Origin: Streptomyces formicae
Lineage (GTDB): Bacteria > Actinomycetota > Actinomycetes > Streptomycetales > Streptomycetaceae
DNA: 64,000 bases
Assembly (NCBI RefSeq): GCF_002556545.1
Contig: NZ_CP022685.1
Location: 5,682,001 to 5,746,000 of the forward strand
Direction: 5' to 3'
The notes under the pieces were generated by a model that searched no databases, had not been told where the DNA came from, and saw only the letters and a list, made by a program, of their open reading frames with translations. Positions within the stretch are counted from its first letter, which is position 1; the number at the start of each line of letters is the position of its first letter. The position numbers and the translations under genes were made by a program. Of this stretch, positions 2,843 to 16,905 are shown piece by piece.

Positions 2843-2865
2843 TTGTCAGTGGGGCCGCCTAGACT
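2843..2865 (+). promoter_or_regulatory. PafBC/RecA-NDp-type promoter of pcrA
   Basis: TTGTCAGTGGG at 2843-2853, a 6-base spacer and TAGACT at 2860-2865 match the mycobacterial RecA-independent DNA-damage promoter bound by PafBC (TTGTCRGTGGC-N6-TANNNT). One position (G for C at base 11) differs. The predicted start site (about 2872) is only a few bases before the pcrA ATG at 2875, so the transcript would be nearly leaderless even though GGGAGG precedes the ATG. Confidence 0.75.
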
Positions 2866-8997: not shown

Positions 8998-10584
8998 TCA
9001 GGGGGTCAGCTCCGTGGTGATCGCGGCTCTCAGGCGGAGCGTGGTCACCAGGCGTTGGAAGGCTTCCGACCAGTAGCCGCCCGCGCCGGGCGAGGCGTTC
9101 TCCGATTCGTCGGGGACGGCCGTGAGGGCCTCCAGGCGTACGGCCTCCGCGGGGTCCAGGCAGCGTTCCGCCAGGCCCATCACCCCGCTGAAGCTCCAGG
9201 GGTAACTGCCCGCGTCCCGGGCGATGTTCAGGGCGTCGACCACCGCGCGGCCCAGCGGCTCCGCCCAGGGGACCGCGCAGACGCCGAGGAGCTGGAAGGC
9301 TTCCGAGAGGCCGTGCGCGGCGATGAAACCCGCCACCCAGTCGGCGCGTTCCCGCGGGGGAAGGGACGCCAGGAGCTTGGCGCGTTCGGCCAGGGAGACC
9401 GCTCCTGGGCCCGCGGCGTCAGGGGACGCGGGAGTGCCGAGCAGCGCCCTGGACCACGCCGCGTCCCGCTGTCGTACGGCCGCCCTGCACCATGCCGCGT
9501 GCAGTTCGCCGCGCCAGTCGTCGGCCACCGGGAGCGCCACTATCTCGGTGGGCGTGCGGTTGCCCAGGCGGCCCTGCCAGCTGTTGAGCGGGGCCGAGTC
9601 CACCAACTGGCCCAGCCACCAGGAGCGTTCGCCACGGCCGGTGGGGGGCTTGGCGACGACGCCGTCCCTTTCCATGGCCGCGTCGCACTCGTGCGGGGCC
9701 TCCACGGTCAGTGTCGGCGTGCTCGCCACGTGGTCCACGGCCACGCAGGAGGCCGCACGGGCCGCCATCCGCGCGGCCAGGGCCGATGCGGGGAGCGCGG
9801 AGAGCAGTTCGGCGGCCGTGGCGCGGACGTTGCGGCTGCGGTCGGTGAGGGCCTCCTCAAGGAAGGGCTCGTCCGCTTCGCAGAGGCCCGTGCGGAGGGT
9901 GTCGAGGAACATCAGGCGGTCCTCCGCGCGCTCCGTCTGCCAGGTGGTGGACAGCAGGGCGCGGGCCGCTTGCGCGTCGTGCTCCCTGAGGGTGGTGAGC
10001 AGGGCGACCCGCTCGGCGAACAGGCCCTCCTCCCACAGTTGTTGAACCTGCGCCGTGTCCGTGGGGTCCGGGAGCGCCATGCCGCCGCCCGGGGTGGAGC
10101 GCAGCGCGAACTTCCAGTCCGGGTTGAGGCGGGCCAGCCACAGGGCCCGGGGGCCCGCGAAGGTCAGTGCCTGGGGGCGCAGGTCCGTGCGTCCGCGTGC
10201 CGCGTTGAGCAGGGCGGGCAGCAGTTCGGGCGGCGCCCCGTAGCCCCGCGCGTTCGCCAGGGAGAGCCACTGGGGCAGGAGTTCCATCAGGTCCGGTGCC
10301 GCGCCCCTTCTGCCGCTGCCGCCGGAGCCCGGCTGGTCGGTGAGGAGCGTCGCGAGGCGTTGCCTCGCCGCGGGAGGCAACGGTGGCCTCGGGTCGTCGG
10401 CGGCGGGCTGGGGCGGTGCGGCCGCCGGGGCGGGGCGCAGACCGGCCCTGCGGCGTACGGTCTGTGCCGCCGCCTGGTCGAGGAGCGTGAGCGGTGCCTC
10501 CTTGCCGGGTGTGGAGAGCGCGCGGCGGTCCGTGCCGAGGAGGGCCGTGGTGACGAGCTCCTCCCAGGGCGTGAGCGCGGGCAT
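8998..10584 (-). CDS. DUF5691 family protein of the MoxR/VWA module
   Basis: A 528-residue soluble, helix-rich protein with no catalytic motif I recognise. I assign it to DUF5691 by its opening (TPWEELVTTALLGTDRR) and its constant partnership with SWIM, MoxR, DUF5682 and VWA genes. The region around residues 240-310 (EEALTDRSRNVRATAAELLSAL and following) reads like HEAT-type repeats, suggesting a scaffold or adaptor. The start ATG 10584 has AGGAGG five bases upstream; the open frame extends further 5' but overlaps the previous gene. It lies 17 bases downstream of the SWIM gene and is probably co-transcribed from the PafBC-type promoter at 11964-11986. The role is inferred from context only. 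Confidence 0.8.
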   Translation of the reverse strand: MPALTPWEELVTTALLGTDRRALSTPGKEAPLTLLDQAAAQTVRRRAGLRPAPAAAPPQPAADDPRPPLPPAARQRLATLLTDQPGSGGSGRRGAAPDLMELLPQWLSLANARGYGAPPELLPALLNAARGRTDLRPQALTFAGPRALWLARLNPDWKFALRSTPGGGMALPDPTDTAQVQQLWEEGLFAERVALLTTLREHDAQAARALLSTTWQTERAEDRLMFLDTLRTGLCEADEPFLEEALTDRSRNVRATAAELLSALPASALAARMAARAASCVAVDHVASTPTLTVEAPHECDAAMERDGVVAKPPTGRGERSWWLGQLVDSAPLNSWQGRLGNRTPTEIVALPVADDWRGELHAAWCRAAVRQRDAAWSRALLGTPASPDAAGPGAVSLAERAKLLASLPPRERADWVAGFIAAHGLSEAFQLLGVCAVPWAEPLGRAVVDALNIARDAGSYPWSFSGVMGLAERCLDPAEAVRLEALTAVPDESENASPGAGGYWSEAFQRLVTTLRLRAAITTELTP

Positions 10585-10601
10585 CCTTGCCTCCTGAGGT
10601 G

Positions 10602-11957
10602 TCAGCACAGCGGGATCGTTCCTTCCGCGTCCTTCGGCCAGGCCGCCAGCGGGGTGAAGCCGCGGTGGCCGCACTCCCCGAACACCGTGAGCGGTGCGCC
10701 GCCGGACAGCGCCACCAGGCGCCACAGGCCCGGTCGGGACGCGGCCGACGGGGAGAGGGGGAGCGCCAAGTCCTCTTCAGGGTCCGTCAGTTGCCAGCCG
10801 TCCGTGGACTGGGTCGGGGTGACGTCGGCCAGGGTCACGGGGTGCGACTCCAGCCAGGGGTCCTTTCGCAGGGCCTCTCCGTAGTGGGCCGTCGCCTCGG
10901 ACACGCGGACGCCCGGTGGGCGCAGCGGTGTGGGGGCCGGGGCGGTGAACTGCTCGCCGAGGTCCGCGCGGAGCCGGATCCCGCCCGGGTACCACGACAG
11001 TGCGGCGTCGAGGGCCAGGCCCACCGGCAGCGCGAGCGACGGGGCCCGGCCCGCCGCCCCGTAGGAGAGAAGCAGTGCCGTGCGGCCCGATTCCGTGCCG
11101 TACATCCATATGCGGCGCGTGGTGAGCTTGCTGTCCGCCGTGTCGTACTGCGCGAGCACCAGCCAGTGGTCCCGCAGGGGCGGCCCCTGGGGCTGGGCGG
11201 GCAGGCCGACGCGGGAGCGGACCGTGGCGGCCAGCTCGTCCGGCAGCTCTTCGCGGTGCAGCCAGCCCTGGTCGAGGAGGTGCAGGAGCGCGCACTCCTC
11301 AAGGAGACGGACCGGCCAGCCGTGGCCCGAGGACGGGATCGCCCCCAATTCGCGCACGCGCGCGGCCAGTCCGGGAGCCTGCGCGTCGACCATGCGGGCG
11401 GCTGTCTCCTCCCACAGGCCGTACCCCGTCTGCTCGGCCGCCGCCGTGCCGCCGCGCAGCAGGTCGGACAGGCGCTGCTCCAGCTCCGTCACGCCCGCAG
11501 TGATCCGCTCGGCCCGCTTCTCCGCGCGGCGGTGTGCCGCTTCGGGGTCGGCGGGGGTGGACGATGGGGGCGAACTCCGCTTCTCCGCCGTTCTCTTACG
11601 GCGCGTCGCCAGCCACTCCTCCGCCCAGGCCGGAGGCTCGCCCTCCGGCACCGTGCCGTCCTGGCCCGCCCAGACGAGCAACAGTCCGAGCGCGTGCTTG
11701 CACGGGAACTTGCGGCTCGGACAACTGCATTTGTACGCCGGGCCGGCCGCCTCTCCCGCGCACGTGATGTCGACGACCGTCTGATACGGCTTGCTGCCAC
11801 TGCCCTTGCACAGGCCCCACACCGTCCCCTCGCCAGAACTGCCCGCCTCCGACCATGGTCCTGCGACACCGAGTTTGCTGCCCGCCTTGCGTGACGGGGC
11901 ATCAGGAGCCAGTGCCAGCACCTGATCCGCCGTCCAGCGCACCCCCTGCTGAGTCAT
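10602..11957 (-). CDS. SWIM zinc-finger protein (YehQ-like)
   Basis: A 451-residue protein with a SWIM zinc finger near residues 75-87 (CSCPSRKFPCKH, the C-x-C-x(n)-C-x-H pattern). SWIM fingers mediate DNA or protein contacts in recombination-linked and chromatin proteins. The rest is helical with charged Arg/Glu stretches (about 120-160) and a long C-terminal region of unknown fold. In E. coli, yehQ encodes a SWIM protein next to MoxR and VWA genes, as here. ATG 11957 falls exactly at the predicted start site of its PafBC-type promoter, and no convincing ribosome site precedes it. The mRNA is therefore probably leaderless. The next gene, DUF5691, follows after 17 bases. Confidence 0.88.
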   Translation of the reverse strand: MTQQGVRWTADQVLALAPDAPSRKAGSKLGVAGPWSEAGSSGEGTVWGLCKGSGSKPYQTVVDITCAGEAAGPAYKCSCPSRKFPCKHALGLLLVWAGQDGTVPEGEPPAWAEEWLATRRKRTAEKRSSPPSSTPADPEAAHRRAEKRAERITAGVTELEQRLSDLLRGGTAAAEQTGYGLWEETAARMVDAQAPGLAARVRELGAIPSSGHGWPVRLLEECALLHLLDQGWLHREELPDELAATVRSRVGLPAQPQGPPLRDHWLVLAQYDTADSKLTTRRIWMYGTESGRTALLLSYGAAGRAPSLALPVGLALDAALSWYPGGIRLRADLGEQFTAPAPTPLRPPGVRVSEATAHYGEALRKDPWLESHPVTLADVTPTQSTDGWQLTDPEEDLALPLSPSAASRPGLWRLVALSGGAPLTVFGECGHRGFTPLAAWPKDAEGTIPLC

Positions 11958-11963
11958 GTCTCG

Positions 11964-11986
11964 AAGGTAGGTGCCGCCACTGACAA
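11964..11986 (-). promoter_or_regulatory. PafBC/RecA-NDp-type promoter of the SWIM-DUF5691 arm
   Basis: On the minus strand TTGTCAGTGGC (11986-11976), a 6-base spacer and TACCTT (11969-11964) fit the RecA-independent damage promoter TTGTCRGTGGC-N6-TANNNT perfectly. Counting seven bases past the -10 puts the start site at 11957, the A of the SWIM gene's ATG. It forms an inverted pair with the motif at 12036-12046. Confidence 0.8.
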
Positions 11987-12035
11987 TCGACCGGGAAGCG
12001 GTCATCGGTGCAGGTCAGAGGCTTGCTCGGGGCGA

Positions 12036-12058
12036 TTGTCAGTGGCGTGGTGCACGGT
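12036..12058 (+). promoter_or_regulatory. PafBC/RecA-NDp-type promoter of the MoxR-DUF5682-VWA arm
   Basis: TTGTCAGTGGC at 12036-12046 is identical to the core on the other strand 50 bases away. After a 6-base spacer the -10 is CACGGT, which keeps A2 and T6 but not the first T, so basal activity may be weaker than for the divergent arm. The predicted start near 12065 leaves a 46-base leader with GGAGGGGG before ATG 12111. Confidence 0.68.
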
Positions 12059-12110
12059 GGAGACACATCCGGGCCAGATGCGTCCGGACGAGCTGGAGGG
12101 GGATCGCTCC

Positions 12111-13289
12111 ATGACCGTTTCCGTCGACTCGACGACGTCCGCGACCGCGAACGGGCCCGTGCCCGCGACTGATTCCGTGACTGATTCCGCGAGCGGTTCC
12201 GTGAGCGGCGCGGAGGTCCTGCGGCCGCATGCCGAGGACGCGTTCGCCGACGAACTCGCCGCGCTCGGCGCGCAGGACGACCGGCCGCGTCCCGCCCGCT
12301 GGAAGCTCTCGCCGTGGGCCGTCGCGACGTACCTGCTCGGCGGCACGCTGCCCGACGGGACCGTGATCACACCGAAGTACGTGGGGCCGAGGCGCATCGT
12401 CGAGGTCGCCGTCACCACGCTCGCCACCGACCGCGCCCTGCTCCTGCTCGGCGTGCCGGGGACCGCCAAGACCTGGGTGTCCGAGCATCTGGCCGCCGCG
12501 GTCAGCGGGGACTCGACCCTGCTCGTGCAGGGCACGGCGGGCACCCCCGAGGAAGCCATCAGGTACGGCTGGAACTACGCGCAGTTGCTCGCGCACGGGC
12601 CGAGCCGCGACGCGCTCGTGCCCAGCCCCGTCATGCGCGCCATGTCCGAGGGCATGACGGCGCGGGTCGAGGAGCTGACCCGCATCCCCGCCGACGTGCA
12701 GGACACGCTGATCACGATCCTGTCGGAGAAGACCCTGCCGATCCCGGAGCTCGGGCAGGAGGTGCAGGGCGTGCGCGGCTTCAACCTCATCGCCACCGCC
12801 AACGACAGGGACCGCGGCGTCAACGACCTGTCGAGCGCGCTGCGCCGCCGGTTCAACACCGTCGTCCTGCCGCTGCCGGAGAGCGCGGACGCCGAGGTCG
12901 ACATCGTCGCGCGCCGCGTCGACCAGCTCGGCACGTCACTCGAACTGCCCACAGGGCCTGAGGGGTTCGACGAGATCCGGCGCGTCGTCACCGTCTTCCG
13001 CGAGCTGCGCGACGGCGTCACCACCGATGGGCGTACGAAGGTGAAATCGCCCAGCGGCACGCTGTCGACCGCCGAGGCCATCTCCGTCGTCACCAACGGC
13101 CTCGCGCTCGCGGCCCACTTCGGGGACGGCGTGCTGCGCCCCGGTGACGTCGCGGCGGGCATCCTCGGCGCCGTCGTGCGCGACCCGGCGGCGGACCGCG
13201 TGATCTGGCAGGAGTACCTCGAAGCGGTCGTGCGCGAGCGCGACGGGTGGAAGGACTTCTACCGTGCCTGCCGCGAGGTGAGCGCGTGA
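12111..13289 (+). CDS. MoxR-family AAA+ ATPase (YehL-like)
   Basis: A 392-residue AAA+ ATPase of the MoxR group, probably the YehL subfamily. MoxR ATPases work as chaperones or remodellers with VWA-domain partners. Visible motifs are Walker A GVPGTAKT (114-121), sensor 1 IATAN (227-231) and RRRF (245-248) with the arginine-finger position. The Walker B site reads ARVEELTR (184-191), so the usual DE is EE, a conservative but notable change. The first 60 residues are Ser/Thr-rich and probably disordered. ATG 12111 has GGAGGGGG upstream; the earlier in-frame TTG would lie inside the promoter. Its stop overlaps the DUF5682 start (GTGA), implying coupled translation and a stable complex with the two following products. 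Confidence 0.9.
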   Translation: MTVSVDSTTSATANGPVPATDSVTDSASGSVSGAEVLRPHAEDAFADELAALGAQDDRPRPARWKLSPWAVATYLLGGTLPDGTVITPKYVGPRRIVEVAVTTLATDRALLLLGVPGTAKTWVSEHLAAAVSGDSTLLVQGTAGTPEEAIRYGWNYAQLLAHGPSRDALVPSPVMRAMSEGMTARVEELTRIPADVQDTLITILSEKTLPIPELGQEVQGVRGFNLIATANDRDRGVNDLSSALRRRFNTVVLPLPESADAEVDIVARRVDQLGTSLELPTGPEGFDEIRRVVTVFRELRDGVTTDGRTKVKSPSGTLSTAEAISVVTNGLALAAHFGDGVLRPGDVAAGILGAVVRDPAADRVIWQEYLEAVVRERDGWKDFYRACREVSA

Positions 13290-15739
13290 CGACGGCACGG
13301 GAGCCGCTGCTGCTCGGGGTGCGGCACCACGGTCCGGGATCCGCGCGTGCGGTGCGGGCCGCGCTCGAGGAGGGGCGGCCCGGGGTCGTCCTGGTCGAGG
13401 GGCCGCCCGAGGCCGACGCCCTGGTGGCGCTCGCCGCCGACGAGGGGATGCGGCCGCCGGTCGCGCTGCTCGCGCACGTGGTGGACGAGCCCGGCCGTTC
13501 GGCGTTCTGGCCGCTCGCGGAGTTCTCTCCGGAGTGGGTGGCCATCCAGTGGGCGCTCGGCCAGGGCGTGCCGGTGCGGTTCATCGACCTCCCCGCGGCG
13601 CACTCGCTCGCCCTGCGCGCCGAGGAGCGGAGCGAGGACGAGAGCAAGGGGGAGGGCGAGCCCGAAGGCGAAGGTGAGGGTGAGGGTGAGGGTGAGGCCG
13701 AAGGCGAGGGGGGAGCGGAGGGTGGCCGGGATGATGTGCGGATCGATCCCCTCGCCGTGCTCGCCGAGACCGCCGGGTACGACGACCCCGAGCGCTGGTG
13801 GGAGGACGTCGTCGAGCACCGGGGACCCGGCGACGACGCGTTCGCACCGTTCGAGGCGCTCGGCGACGCCATGACGGCGCTGCGCGAGGAGTACGGGGAC
13901 GGCGGGCACGCGCGCGACCTGACGCGCGAGGCCTACATGCGCATCCAAGTGCGCGCGGCGCAGAAGGAGTTCGGGGCGGGCGGGGTGGCCGTGGTGTGCG
14001 GCGCCTGGCACGTTCCCGCGCTGCGGCGGAAGGTCACGGTGACCGCCGACCGCGCGCTGCTCAAGGGCCTGCCCAAGGTGAAGGCCGAGATGACGTGGGT
14101 GCCCTGGACGCACCGCAGGCTCTCCCGCACCAGTGGGTACGGCGCGGGAATCACGTCACCCGGCTGGTACGGCCACCTGTTCGGCGCCCCCGACCGGCCC
14201 GTCGAGCGCTGGATGACGAAGGTCGCGGGGCTGCTGCGCGCCGAGGACAGGCCGGTGTCGTCCGCGCACGTCATCGAGGCGGTGCGGCTCGCCGACACGC
14301 TCGCCGCGATGCGGGGGCGGCCGCTGGCGGGGCTCACCGAGGCGACCGATGCCGTACGGGCGGTGATGTGCGAGGGCTCCGACGTGCCGCTCGGGCTCGT
14401 GCACGACAGGCTCGTCGTCGGGGACGTCCTGGGGGAGGTGCCCGACGCGGCGCCCGCGGTGCCGTTGCAGCGCGACCTCACCCGGATACAGCGCAGGCTG
14501 CGCCTCAAACCGGAGGCGCTGGAGCGGCAGTTGGAGCTCGACCTGCGCAAGGAGACCGACGCCGCGCGCAGCACCCTGCTGCACCGGCTCAGGCTGCTCG
14601 GCATCGGCTGGGGCGATCCGGCCGCGTCCCGGGGGAGTACGGGCACGTTCCGGGAGACCTGGCGACTGCGCTGGGATCCTGAGCTGTCCGTGCGGGTCGC
14701 GGAGGCGGGGGTGTGGGGGACCACGGTGCTCGGCGCGGCCACGGGCAGGGCGTCGGCCGACGCGGTCGAGGCGGTCGCCCTCGCCGATGTCACCTCCCTC
14801 GCGGAGCGGTGTCTGCTCGCCGAGCTGCCGGACGCGCTGCCCGTGGTGATGCGGGTGCTCGCGGACCGGGCGGCGCTGGACACGGACGTTGGCCACCTCG
14901 CACAGGCGCTGCCCGCGCTGGTGCGGTCCCTTCGGTACGGGGATGTTCGGGGGACCGGCACGGAGGCGCTCGGCGAGGTCGCCCTCGGGCTCGCCGAGCG
15001 GGTCTTCGTCGGGTTGCCGCCTGCGTGCGCGGGGCTCGACGCGGACGCGGCACTGGCCATGCGGGGGCATGTCGACGTGGTGCACCAAGCGGTCGGGCTG
15101 CTGGGCGAGCTGGCGTCGTCGTCGGCTACGGGCGACGCCCAGGACGTCCGCGTCCGGTGGTACTCCGTGCTGCGGAAGCTCGCTGGGCGGGAGGCCGTCG
15201 CCGGAGTCGTACGCGGGCGGAGTGTGCGGTTGCTCCTGGACGGCGGGGAGTTGGGGGACGAGGACGTCGCCCGGCTCATGGGGCTCGCGCTCTCCCGGGG
15301 AAGCGCGCCCGCCGAGGGCGCCGCCTGGATCGAGGGGTTCGTCGGGGGCGCGTCCGGCGGCGGGATGCTGCTCGTGCACGACGAGCGGCTGCTCGGACTG
15401 GTCGACGACTGGCTGAGCGGGGTCTCCGGCGACGCGTTCACCGACGTACTGCCACTGCTGCGGCGCACGTTCTCGGCGTACGAGCCAGGGGTGCGGCGGA
15501 CGTTGGGGGAGCTGGTGCGGCGTGGTCCCGGCGGGGGGTCGTCCGGCGCGGTGGCCACGGTCGCGGGAGGGATACCCGGGTTCGATCCGGAGATCGACGC
15601 GGTGCGGGCGGATGCGGTGCTGGCGGTTGTGGAGTTGCTGCTTGGGGCTGGGGCTGGGGCTGGGGCTGGGGCTGGGGCCGGGACGGGGTCCGGGGCCGGT
15701 GCGGGTGATCACAACGACCTTGTGGGGGTGGGCCGATGA
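13286..15739 (+). CDS. DUF5682 family protein (YehM-like), possible TraB/TIKI/ChaN-type hydrolase
   Basis: An 817-residue cytoplasmic protein that I place in DUF5682, as in E. coli yehM. The N-terminal 250 residues carry GVRHHG (11-16), VLVEGP (35-40) and GAWHVP (239-244). That is the GxxH...E...GxxH pattern of the TraB/TIKI/EreA/ChaN superfamily, some members of which are metal-dependent proteases or esterases. This is my inference and not an established activity. A Glu-Gly repeat (about 121-145) interrupts that domain. The long C-terminal part is helical, with a Gly-Ala repeat near 790-803. The GTG start at 13286 overlaps the MoxR stop, and the TGA at 15737-15739 overlaps the VWA start, so the three are translationally coupled. 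Confidence 0.85.
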   Translation: MTTAREPLLLGVRHHGPGSARAVRAALEEGRPGVVLVEGPPEADALVALAADEGMRPPVALLAHVVDEPGRSAFWPLAEFSPEWVAIQWALGQGVPVRFIDLPAAHSLALRAEERSEDESKGEGEPEGEGEGEGEGEAEGEGGAEGGRDDVRIDPLAVLAETAGYDDPERWWEDVVEHRGPGDDAFAPFEALGDAMTALREEYGDGGHARDLTREAYMRIQVRAAQKEFGAGGVAVVCGAWHVPALRRKVTVTADRALLKGLPKVKAEMTWVPWTHRRLSRTSGYGAGITSPGWYGHLFGAPDRPVERWMTKVAGLLRAEDRPVSSAHVIEAVRLADTLAAMRGRPLAGLTEATDAVRAVMCEGSDVPLGLVHDRLVVGDVLGEVPDAAPAVPLQRDLTRIQRRLRLKPEALERQLELDLRKETDAARSTLLHRLRLLGIGWGDPAASRGSTGTFRETWRLRWDPELSVRVAEAGVWGTTVLGAATGRASADAVEAVALADVTSLAERCLLAELPDALPVVMRVLADRAALDTDVGHLAQALPALVRSLRYGDVRGTGTEALGEVALGLAERVFVGLPPACAGLDADAALAMRGHVDVVHQAVGLLGELASSSATGDAQDVRVRWYSVLRKLAGREAVAGVVRGRSVRLLLDGGELGDEDVARLMGLALSRGSAPAEGAAWIEGFVGGASGGGMLLVHDERLLGLVDDWLSGVSGDAFTDVLPLLRRTFSAYEPGVRRTLGELVRRGPGGGSSGAVATVAGGIPGFDPEIDAVRADAVLAVVELLLGAGAGAGAGAGAGTGSGAGAGDHNDLVGVGR
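15644..15679 (+). repeat. GGGGCT hexamer array inside the DUF5682 gene
   Basis: Five perfect GGGGCT units and one GGGGCC unit encode alternating Gly and Ala near the C-terminus. Units of six bases keep the frame, so length changes would add or remove Gly-Ala pairs without disrupting the protein. Confidence 0.88.
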
Positions 15740-16905
15740 GCGGGGCTACGGATGAGCGGCTGCGGCGGTGGCGGCTCGTGCTCGGTGGGGGTGACGCGGA
15801 CGGCACGGGGTGCGGGCTCGCCGGGCAGGACGCGGCGATGGACGGGGCGCTCACCGCGTTGTACGGGGGAGGGGACGCCAAGGGAGCCCGGGGGCAGGAG
15901 CGTTCGGCGGGGCTCGGGGGATCCGCGCCGTCCGTGGCGCGTTGGCTCGGGGACATCCGGACGTACTTCCCCTCGTCCGTCGTCCAGGTCATGCAGCGCG
16001 ACGCCATCGACAGGCTCGGGCTCTCCACGCTGCTCCTGGAGCCCGAGATGCTGGAGGCCGTCGACGCGGACGTACACCTGGTGGGGACGCTGCTCTCCCT
16101 CAACAAGGCCATGCCGGAGACCACCAAGGAGACCGCGCGGGCCGTCGTGCGCAAGGTCGTCGACGACCTGGAGAAGCGGCTCGCGACGCGGACCCGCTCC
16201 ACGCTGACCGGTGCCCTCGACCGCAGCGCGCGGGTCAGCAGGCCGCGCCACCACGACATCGACTGGAACCGCACGATCGCGGCCAACCTCAAGAACTACC
16301 TGCCGGAGCACGGGACGATCGTCCCCGAGCGCCTGATCGGGTACGGGCGCGCTTCCCAGTCGGTGAAGAAGGAGGTCATCCTCTGCATCGACCAGTCGGG
16401 GTCGATGGCCGCGTCCGTCGTCTACGCCTCGGTGTTCGGCGCCGTGCTCGGTTCCATGCGGTCGCTCAACACGCGGCTCGTCGTCTTCGACACGAACGTC
16501 GTCGACCTGACCGATCAGCTCGACGATCCGGTGGACGTCCTGTGCGGTACGCAGCTGGGCGGCGGGACCGACATCAACAGGGCGCTCGCGTACTGCCAGT
16601 CGCAGATCACCCGGCCCGCGGACACGGTCGTCGTCCTGATCAGTGATCTCTACGAAGGCGGCATACGCGACGAGATGCTGAAGCGGGTCGCGGCGATGAA
16701 GGCGTCCGGGGTGCAGTTCGTGACGCTGCTCGCGCTCTCCGACGAGGGGACGCCCGCGTACGACCGCGAGCACGCGGCGGCGCTCGCCGCGCTCGACGCA
16801 CCGGCCTTCGCCTGCACGCCTGACCTCTTCCCCGACGTGATGGCCGCGGCGATCGAAAGGCGCCCACTTCCCATACCGGACACGACAGCGGGGAACAGGA
16901 CATGA
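15736..16905 (+). CDS. VWA-domain protein (CoxE/YehP-like)
   Basis: A 389-residue protein with a helical N-terminal half and a C-terminal von Willebrand A domain. The metal-ion-dependent adhesion site is complete: DQSGS (219-223), the Thr in GGGTDIN, and the Asp in ISDLYEGG. VWA proteins of this kind are the obligate partners of MoxR ATPases and usually carry substrate recognition. It resembles E. coli YehP. ATG overlaps the DUF5682 stop (ATGA). The gene ends the rightward arm; no clear terminator hairpin was noticed in the 170 bases before the next gene. Confidence 0.9.
   Translation: MSGATDERLRRWRLVLGGGDADGTGCGLAGQDAAMDGALTALYGGGDAKGARGQERSAGLGGSAPSVARWLGDIRTYFPSSVVQVMQRDAIDRLGLSTLLLEPEMLEAVDADVHLVGTLLSLNKAMPETTKETARAVVRKVVDDLEKRLATRTRSTLTGALDRSARVSRPRHHDIDWNRTIAANLKNYLPEHGTIVPERLIGYGRASQSVKKEVILCIDQSGSMAASVVYASVFGAVLGSMRSLNTRLVVFDTNVVDLTDQLDDPVDVLCGTQLGGGTDINRALAYCQSQITRPADTVVVLISDLYEGGIRDEMLKRVAAMKASGVQFVTLLALSDEGTPAYDREHAAALAALDAPAFACTPDLFPDVMAAAIERRPLPIPDTTAGNRT

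Follow-up and report, generated by a model that had tools for sequence, protein, structure and literature searches.

In a 64,000-nucleotide stretch of the 9.6-Mb Streptomyces formicae chromosome (NZ_CP022685.1, positions 5,682,001 to 5,746,000; hereafter the window, in whose coordinates we place features unless a locus is named), five genes arranged as two divergent arms encode a SWIM zinc-finger protein, a DUF5691 protein, a MoxR-type ATPase, a DUF5682 protein and a VWA protein. We propose, with a probability of roughly 60%, that these chromosomal genes encode a class II Yeh-type machine belonging to the Streptomyces RecA-independent (PafBC-type) DNA-damage regulon, in which it would act as a damage-induced AAA+ remodeller with a hydrolase. 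The proposal draws on the computed gene families and their synteny, on promoter elements and the regulon that they mark, and on a predicted fold with invariant residues. In particular, the module genes share their promoter signal with the main DNA-repair genes of the organism, suggesting an overlooked damage-response machine.

Promoter elements and their regulon

The SWIM arm is preceded by an exact RecA-NDp/PafBC-type element on the reverse strand (TTGTCAGTG-N8-TACCTT, 11964–11986), and the MoxR arm by a forward-strand element with one mismatch and an atypical -10 hexamer (TTGTCAGTG-N8-CACGGT, 12036–12058). A first-pass annotation of this DNA had described the two motifs as identical and inverted; a 14-mer (GCCACTGACAATCG, 11976–11989) is indeed copied exactly in inverted form (CGATTGTCAGTGGC, 12033–12046), but the identity ends at the -10 hexamers, TACCTT in the SWIM arm versus CACGGT in the MoxR arm.

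A search of the genome with the pattern TTGTCAGTG-N8-TANNNT, using the reversed pattern as a control, returned 25 exact sites and 78 sites with at most one mismatch, compared with 2 for the control. Exact sites were present in all 61 Streptomyces genomes sampled (3–40 each), against 3 control matches in the 61 together. These counts, along with conservation of the element within individual loci, show that it occurs beyond chance. Across a phylum panel, 27 of 246 genomes contained a site; the eight Streptomyces had 6–37 sites each and 19 of the 238 others had 1–2, while the reversed control matched nine times over all 246, so enrichment of the strict pattern is confined to Streptomyces.

One of the 25 exact sites is that of the module. 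A Pfam scan of the genes downstream of 20 of the other 24 (all but L002, L013, L015 and L019) assigned 12 to repair or replication, namely UDG, MgsA/RarA, a PD-(D/E)XK nuclease, RecD2-HHH, UvrA, UvrB, MGMT, AlkZ, DnaX, a RadA-like protein (by eye), UvrD and RecA. The remaining eight comprised two DEAD-type helicases, ThyX, ribosomal S6, Shedu SduA, a sigma-70 protein, a TPR protein and one protein without a family; dinB, ruvC, dnaE, recG, lhr and xthA were recognised by eye as further regulon genes. Outside the module, the window itself contains one other exact element, at 2843–2865 (forward strand), before a UvrD/PcrA-type helicase gene (UvrD-helicase, 317 bits). A coding start lies 5–9 nt past the -10 hexamer at 35 of the 78 sites (12 of the 25 exact ones), compared with 3–16 in each of ten other 5-nt bins, a spacing that fits leaderless promoters; the SWIM gene is probably leaderless.

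Three of the exact sites call for separate mention. One (L018, G000:C1:4963524-4963546) is followed after 6 nt by the gene for a defence-type nuclease whose C-terminal domain is of the Shedu SduA family; another (L023, G000:C1:5830098-5830120) is located at a gene for a sigma-70-like protein whose C-terminus is SnoaL-like (SigJ-type by eye), and several other Streptomyces genomes contain the same site sequence, TTGTCAGTGGGCTGCGGTAGCTT; the third (L005, G000:C1:1383828-1383850) precedes a gene for a 308-residue protein without a Pfam family.

The search pattern contains the PafBC consensus given for M. tuberculosis, TGTCAG-N10-TA-N3-T (PMC8151990). In S. coelicolor, RecA-NDp promoters have been described upstream of recA and of SCO6735, which is UV-inducible (PMC5087735), and the promoter is said to extend to other Actinobacteria (PMC8223512). 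The element, its spacing and the class of genes that it precedes here are those of the mycobacterial PafBC/RecA-NDp regulon and of SCO6735; the differences are that the module is not named in the parts of that literature available to us and that one of its arms has a conserved variant -10 hexamer. As for the regulator, a Pup ligase gene was matched in the genome, and PafB- and PafC-like genes were recognised by eye downstream of it (L141, 6095–7072 and 5091–6077). According to PMC9380542, an initial search in S. venezuelae did not find the M. smegmatis PafBC motif. Our result bears on that statement, since the strict pattern in 61 of 61 sampled genomes implies that a PafBC-type regulon should exist in the genus.

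Both elements of the module are conserved in Streptomyces, as a reading of 30 retrieved SWIM loci shows. Of these, 29 match the SWIM-arm element exactly and the remaining one with a single mismatch; the element ends 6–7 nt before the start codon in 27, and in the other three the script-placed start falls on a non-start codon. Within a 260-nt span, 27 of the 30 loci keep the MoxR-arm core exactly, and the core plus TGGTGCANNGT occurs in all 30, with the wider pattern TTGTCAGTGG[CTG][GA]TGGTGCA..GT. In all 27 loci scored, the -10 hexamer of this arm is CANNNT and never TANNNT, which departs genuinely from the consensus. Across those 27 loci, the MoxR-arm element lies at a variable distance (57 to 214 nt) from the SWIM start, and pairwise identity is 0.42 in the 20 nt upstream of either element, indicating that the elements are kept more than the surrounding region; within the SWIM-arm element, identity is 0.99 in the core and 0.63 in the spacer. 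A subclass of one-mismatch sites in the S. formicae genome (e.g. L028, L042, L063, L065 and L078) has TGC-CANNNT or GTG-CANNNT in place of TANNNT, and L065, which shares the MoxR-arm variant, precedes a helicase gene that is Lhr-like by eye. This subclass, to which the MoxR arm conforms, may represent a variant class of PafBC promoter with an extended -10.

A second class of Yeh-type system

All five module genes (8998–16905) could be matched to families by profile. In the left arm, on the reverse strand, the SWIM gene (10602–11957; PF04434, 24.9 bits, cut-off 19.6) is followed by the gene for the HEAT-like DUF5691 protein (8998–10584; PF18944, 588 bits over the whole model), whose ATG at 10584 lies 17 nt past the SWIM stop with an AGGAGG-like site. 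On the forward strand, the right arm encodes a MoxR-type AAA+ ATPase of the YehL class (12111–13289; AAA_5, 125.9 bits; alternative in-frame ATG at 12078), the DUF5682 protein (13286–15739; PF18934, 996 bits) and a CoxE-type VWA protein of the YehP class (15736–16905; PF05762/VWA_CoxE, 201.8 bits), with four-base overlaps between consecutive genes (GTGA, 13286–13289; ATGA, 15736–15739). The two divergent arms, the coupling within the right arm and the outer coordinates agree with the first-pass annotation. Its SWIM start at 12005 is here moved to the ATG at 11957, because the -10 hexamer ends 6 nt before that codon and many relatives align from there. The CxCx7CxH motif of the SWIM protein (CSCPSRKFPCKH) is intact and was found by regular expression in 30 of 31 relatives scanned, and the DxSxS...T...D residues of a metal-ion-dependent adhesion site (MIDAS) were spotted by eye in the VWA protein.

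To our knowledge, the E. coli yeh gene set has never been explained. E. coli K-12 carries yehF (WGR), yehI (DUF4132), yehL, yehM, yehP and yehQ, and the module had been likened to the last four. When checked against the Yeh proteins, this likeness holds for the MoxR protein (YehL, 40% identity, E 3e-74), DUF5682 (YehM, 28%, E 3e-39) and VWA (YehP, 38%, E 2e-76), but does not extend to the SWIM and DUF5691 proteins, neither of which has a significant BLASTP partner in the E. coli Yeh set. YehQ also has a SWIM domain; an iterated profile of the module's own SWIM protein found only nine proteins among the best 80 loci, which were taken from at least 593 matched stretches in named genomes. Together with the absence of DUF5691 from the E. 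coli set, these results place the module in a different class from yehLMPQ. The E. coli locus, with yehF/molR and yehI included, has the MoxR, DUF5682 and VWA homologues in the same order as the module, as well as a SWIM-domain protein; it differs in its additional WGR and DUF4132 proteins, its longer SWIM protein, its lack of DUF5691 and a reported damage link that involves LexA at molR and not PafBC.

The same division appears throughout the best 80 loci. Class I (MoxR-DUF5682-VWA-YehQ) accounts for 60, of which 56 have DUF4132, and class II (SWIM, MoxR, DUF5682, VWA) for nine, of which eight have DUF5691 and two DUF4132; 11 loci are incomplete. The two SWIM types occur together in none of the 80, and the S. 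formicae genome gave no DUF4132 match at E≤0.001. MoxR, DUF5682 and VWA are contiguous and in this order in the module, in the nine class II loci and in class I loci, except for L182, where DUF4132 is inserted. All five class II families are colinear in loci of Pseudomonadota, Bacteroidota and Planctomycetota, and likewise on a Deinococcus and a Rhizobium plasmid, so that the five-family set is present in five phyla, the module's own included. A Roseiflexus locus (Chloroflexota) has the class II set without a detected DUF5691, and class II is colinear in nine other Actinomycetota loci, in one of which DUF5691 was not seen. Synteny is thus conserved not only in related genomes but across phyla. 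As judged by sequence comparison, the module represents a second class of Yeh-type system, SWIM-DUF5691-MoxR-DUF5682-VWA, with E. coli yehLMPQ in the DUF4132-linked class I, a division that is new here. Since class II is colinear elsewhere, the divergent layout is most simply explained by rearrangement of such an operon in Streptomyces.

Several other variants were observed among these loci. On a Hymenobacter radiodurans plasmid (L234, 7980–10272), DUF5682 is annotated as three consecutive pieces with no VWA annotated after them, so this class II copy looks broken. Five Streptomyces loci (L097-L101, in G161, G023, G193, G107 and G182) contain open frames of 1341–1645 residues that include a further DUF5682 sub-family of the VRHHAPSLAAAVPALL type. 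A candidate for a third class, a divergent DUF5682-like frame in Streptomyces G023 (L235, 4229–8518), adjoins VWA and MoxR genes and is without the RHHxP motif; a Pfam scan lists no family for it, while it scored 99 bits in the genome search and 172 and 113 bits with our own profiles. The iterated search marks WGR in 53 of 92 DUF4132 proteins, a count that may be inflated, as Pfam confirms only 2 of 6 tested.

The promoter element is also found on related operons. The 34 actinobacterial loci among the best 80 (649 kb) contain nine sites with at most one mismatch, all of them sense-oriented and situated at the 5′ end of either a DUF4132 gene (eight) or a MoxR gene (one), whereas the 46 loci of other phyla (806 kb) contain a single site, inside MoxR. 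At up to two mismatches, 15 of 21 sites fall in such 5′ regions, where a fraction of 0.028 is expected (p 2e-19, which is optimistic because three Lentzea and five Streptomyces sites are among the 15) and six fall outside; the other 19 of the 34 actinobacterial loci have no site in those regions. In Goodfellowiella (L150), the site is located between tandem DUF4132 genes and not before the first gene of the row. The class I operon of G128 (L237) starts at an exact site, and so does the divergent VWA-MoxR-DUF5682-like operon of L235, where the first frame begins 5 nt after it. Some actinobacterial class I operons therefore carry the element too, which is new here. Two further candidates were not counted: a site in G161 (L236, exact) about 2.5 kb before VWA, with no long frame starting within 60 nt, and one upstream in G193 (L238), which some 6 kb containing other open frames separates from MoxR. 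The PafBC-type promoter reading of the first-pass annotation is accordingly backed by the genome-wide regulon, the PafB- and PafC-like genes, conservation in Streptomyces and these class I operons.

In other phyla, E. coli molR is among the known LexA-regulated genes (PMC11039860), and Deinococcus WGR/DUF4132 genes are reported as damage-regulated (DdrO); both concern partner genes and not MoxR-DUF5682-VWA itself. A one-mismatch LexA box lies about 10 nt before yehF (L108, 6450–6465), with 13 matches against 8.8 expected in 30 kb, which is not significant alone. No operon-start pattern of LexA boxes was apparent before operons of other phyla among the matches listed, and no radiation/desiccation response motif was found in the Deinococcus taeanensis class II operon.

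DUF5682 and a proposed mechanism

The AlphaFold2 model of DUF5682 has a predicted local distance difference test score of 88 over its full length and 90 in the N domain. Its predicted layout consists of a TIKI/TraB/EreA-like hydrolase domain at about residues 1–300 and a HEAT-like solenoid at about 480–747. Low-complexity coding repeats, a Gly-Glu stretch at 13650–13710 and a Gly-Ala tail at 15640–15700, correspond to low-confidence parts of the model. As a full-length fold search was filled by the solenoid, the N domain was modelled separately, and its search matched the TIKI/TraB/EreA superfamily fold. A sequence search for PDB relatives returned nothing usable, and a few families that matched single members at lower E-values than ChaN (e.g. 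NESP55, 4e-6) were taken as chance. The TIKI-superfamily toxin PMT (PMC6254334) is not among the listed N-domain fold matches, which is no evidence either way.

Seven residues (H14, E38, D101, R214, E215, G239 and H242) are invariant in 68 DUF5682 sequences. The TIKI superfamily has a 2His/2Glu active-site motif with E-x-H (PMC6254334), and in a comparison by motif order, not by superposition, residues 1–300 of DUF5682 share with TIKI, EreC, ChaN, HopBA1 and RRSP the predicted fold and an invariant His/Glu/His in corresponding order. DUF5682 differs from this TIKI/TraB/EreA/ChaN superfamily in adding a long HEAT-like solenoid, and its hydrolytic activity is only predicted. The prediction for DUF5682, new here, is a TIKI/TraB/EreA-fold hydrolase joined to a HEAT-like solenoid; it gives concrete form to the first-pass suggestion that the protein may be catalytic.

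From these data we infer induction, complex formation, hydrolysis and a target, which could be connected as follows. Single-stranded DNA made by damage would activate PafBC, consistent with its reported activation by such DNA (PMC11804915), and PafBC with the housekeeping polymerase would fire both divergent promoters. MoxR would form an ATP-driven ring with its pore plugged by the VWA partner, as PMC9976466 proposes for such pairs in general. Target recognition or recruitment may fall to the SWIM and DUF5691 proteins; the ring would remodel this target and present it to the TIKI/TraB/EreA-like domain of DUF5682; DUF5682 would then cleave it, or might itself be loaded or switched on by the ring. 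That the target is DNA-protein complexes is a bold guess.

Two observations weigh against this proposal. The 2His/2Glu set of DUF5682 is incomplete by the Ere/RRSP standard, with V12 where the first Glu of E-x-H is expected. In addition, nine non-Streptomyces actinobacterial class II loci have no PafBC motif at up to one mismatch; two of them have one site with two mismatches, not at the first gene.

Alternative explanations and wider meaning

The module could instead be a maturation chaperone for a metalloenzyme in the manner of NorQD, CoxDE or CbbQO, in which DUF5682 or another enzyme would receive a cofactor from MoxR and VWA, or be activated by them, and the damage promoter merely supplies more of it under stress. 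The VWA_CoxE and AAA_5 family matches and the position of DUF5682 between MoxR and VWA in the module and in class II loci are compatible with such a role, and NorQD, CbbQO and RavA/ViaA are treated as remodelling couples in PMC9976466. NorQ-NorD, CbbQ-CbbO and RavA-ViaA offer a works-like analogy, sharing with the module the pair of a MoxR-type AAA+ and a MIDAS VWA protein, to which the module adds a predicted hydrolase, SWIM and HEAT-like partners; with the RavA-ViaA model PRK10997 the score is 21.6 (cut-off 500). Against the chaperone reading, the annotation of the two intact class II operons read in this way names no respiratory, carbon monoxide or nitric oxide enzyme, and we know of no such system with SWIM, DUF5691 or DUF4132 partners. 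We consider a metalloenzyme chaperone rather unlikely.

It is improbable, in our view, that the elements are bound by another regulator such as ClgR, or that only the SWIM arm is truly PafBC-driven. ClgR has been discussed at P1/RecA-NDp (PMC5656591), the S. venezuelae search cited above would fit a different regulator, and the invariable lack of TANNNT in the MoxR arm would fit control of the SWIM arm alone; against this explanation stand the M. tuberculosis consensus contained in the pattern and the earlier RecA-NDp assignments in S. coelicolor. MoxR1, MoxR2 and a von Willebrand protein (MSMEG_5511) are among those that a table in PMC5656591 gives as lower when pafBC is mutated.

A damage-induced anti-phage or abortive-infection system, for which one could cite 24 PLSDB records with a DUF5682 match (several of chromosome size), the exact element at the Shedu SduA gene and the proposal of MoxR-VWA ternary systems as conflict systems (PMC7159879), seems less plausible still, given a SWIM match in 56 of 61 Streptomyces genomes, nearly always one per genome, the lack of a variable effector part, the lack of a convincing PADLOC family (IetA alone for the ATPase, two models, best E 0.014, and none for the other four proteins) and the weak traits of a VMAP/beta-propeller MoxR-vWA ternary system, with bpMoxR at 22.7 bits against a 27-bit cut-off and no effector domain over cut-off on the VWA protein.

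In the listed titles and abstract openings of the open literature searched, we found no link of the module to DNA damage; the same literature gave no mention of DUF5682, and at least two of the four yeh names appeared together only in a genome announcement and a strain collection. As a long shot, all Yeh-type classes might constitute an ancient damage-inducible AAA+ hydrolase machine placed under each lineage's damage regulator (PafBC in Actinobacteria, LexA at E. coli molR, DdrO in Deinococcus), in which a MoxR/VWA ring would pull DNA-trapped or cross-linked proteins, found by SWIM/WGR-type partners, into the TIKI-like DUF5682 domain, which would make it the bacterial equivalent of p97 acting with SPRTN to repair DNA-protein crosslinks. 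Genes of the yehLMPQ type are spread over many phyla, E. coli K-12 included; the model of DUF5682 offers H14, E38 and H242 as a candidate active site; and assigning the Streptomyces class, together with some of its class I relatives, to the PafBC-type regulon beside recA and uvrAB gives a specific and cheap test, namely damage induction and sensitivity.

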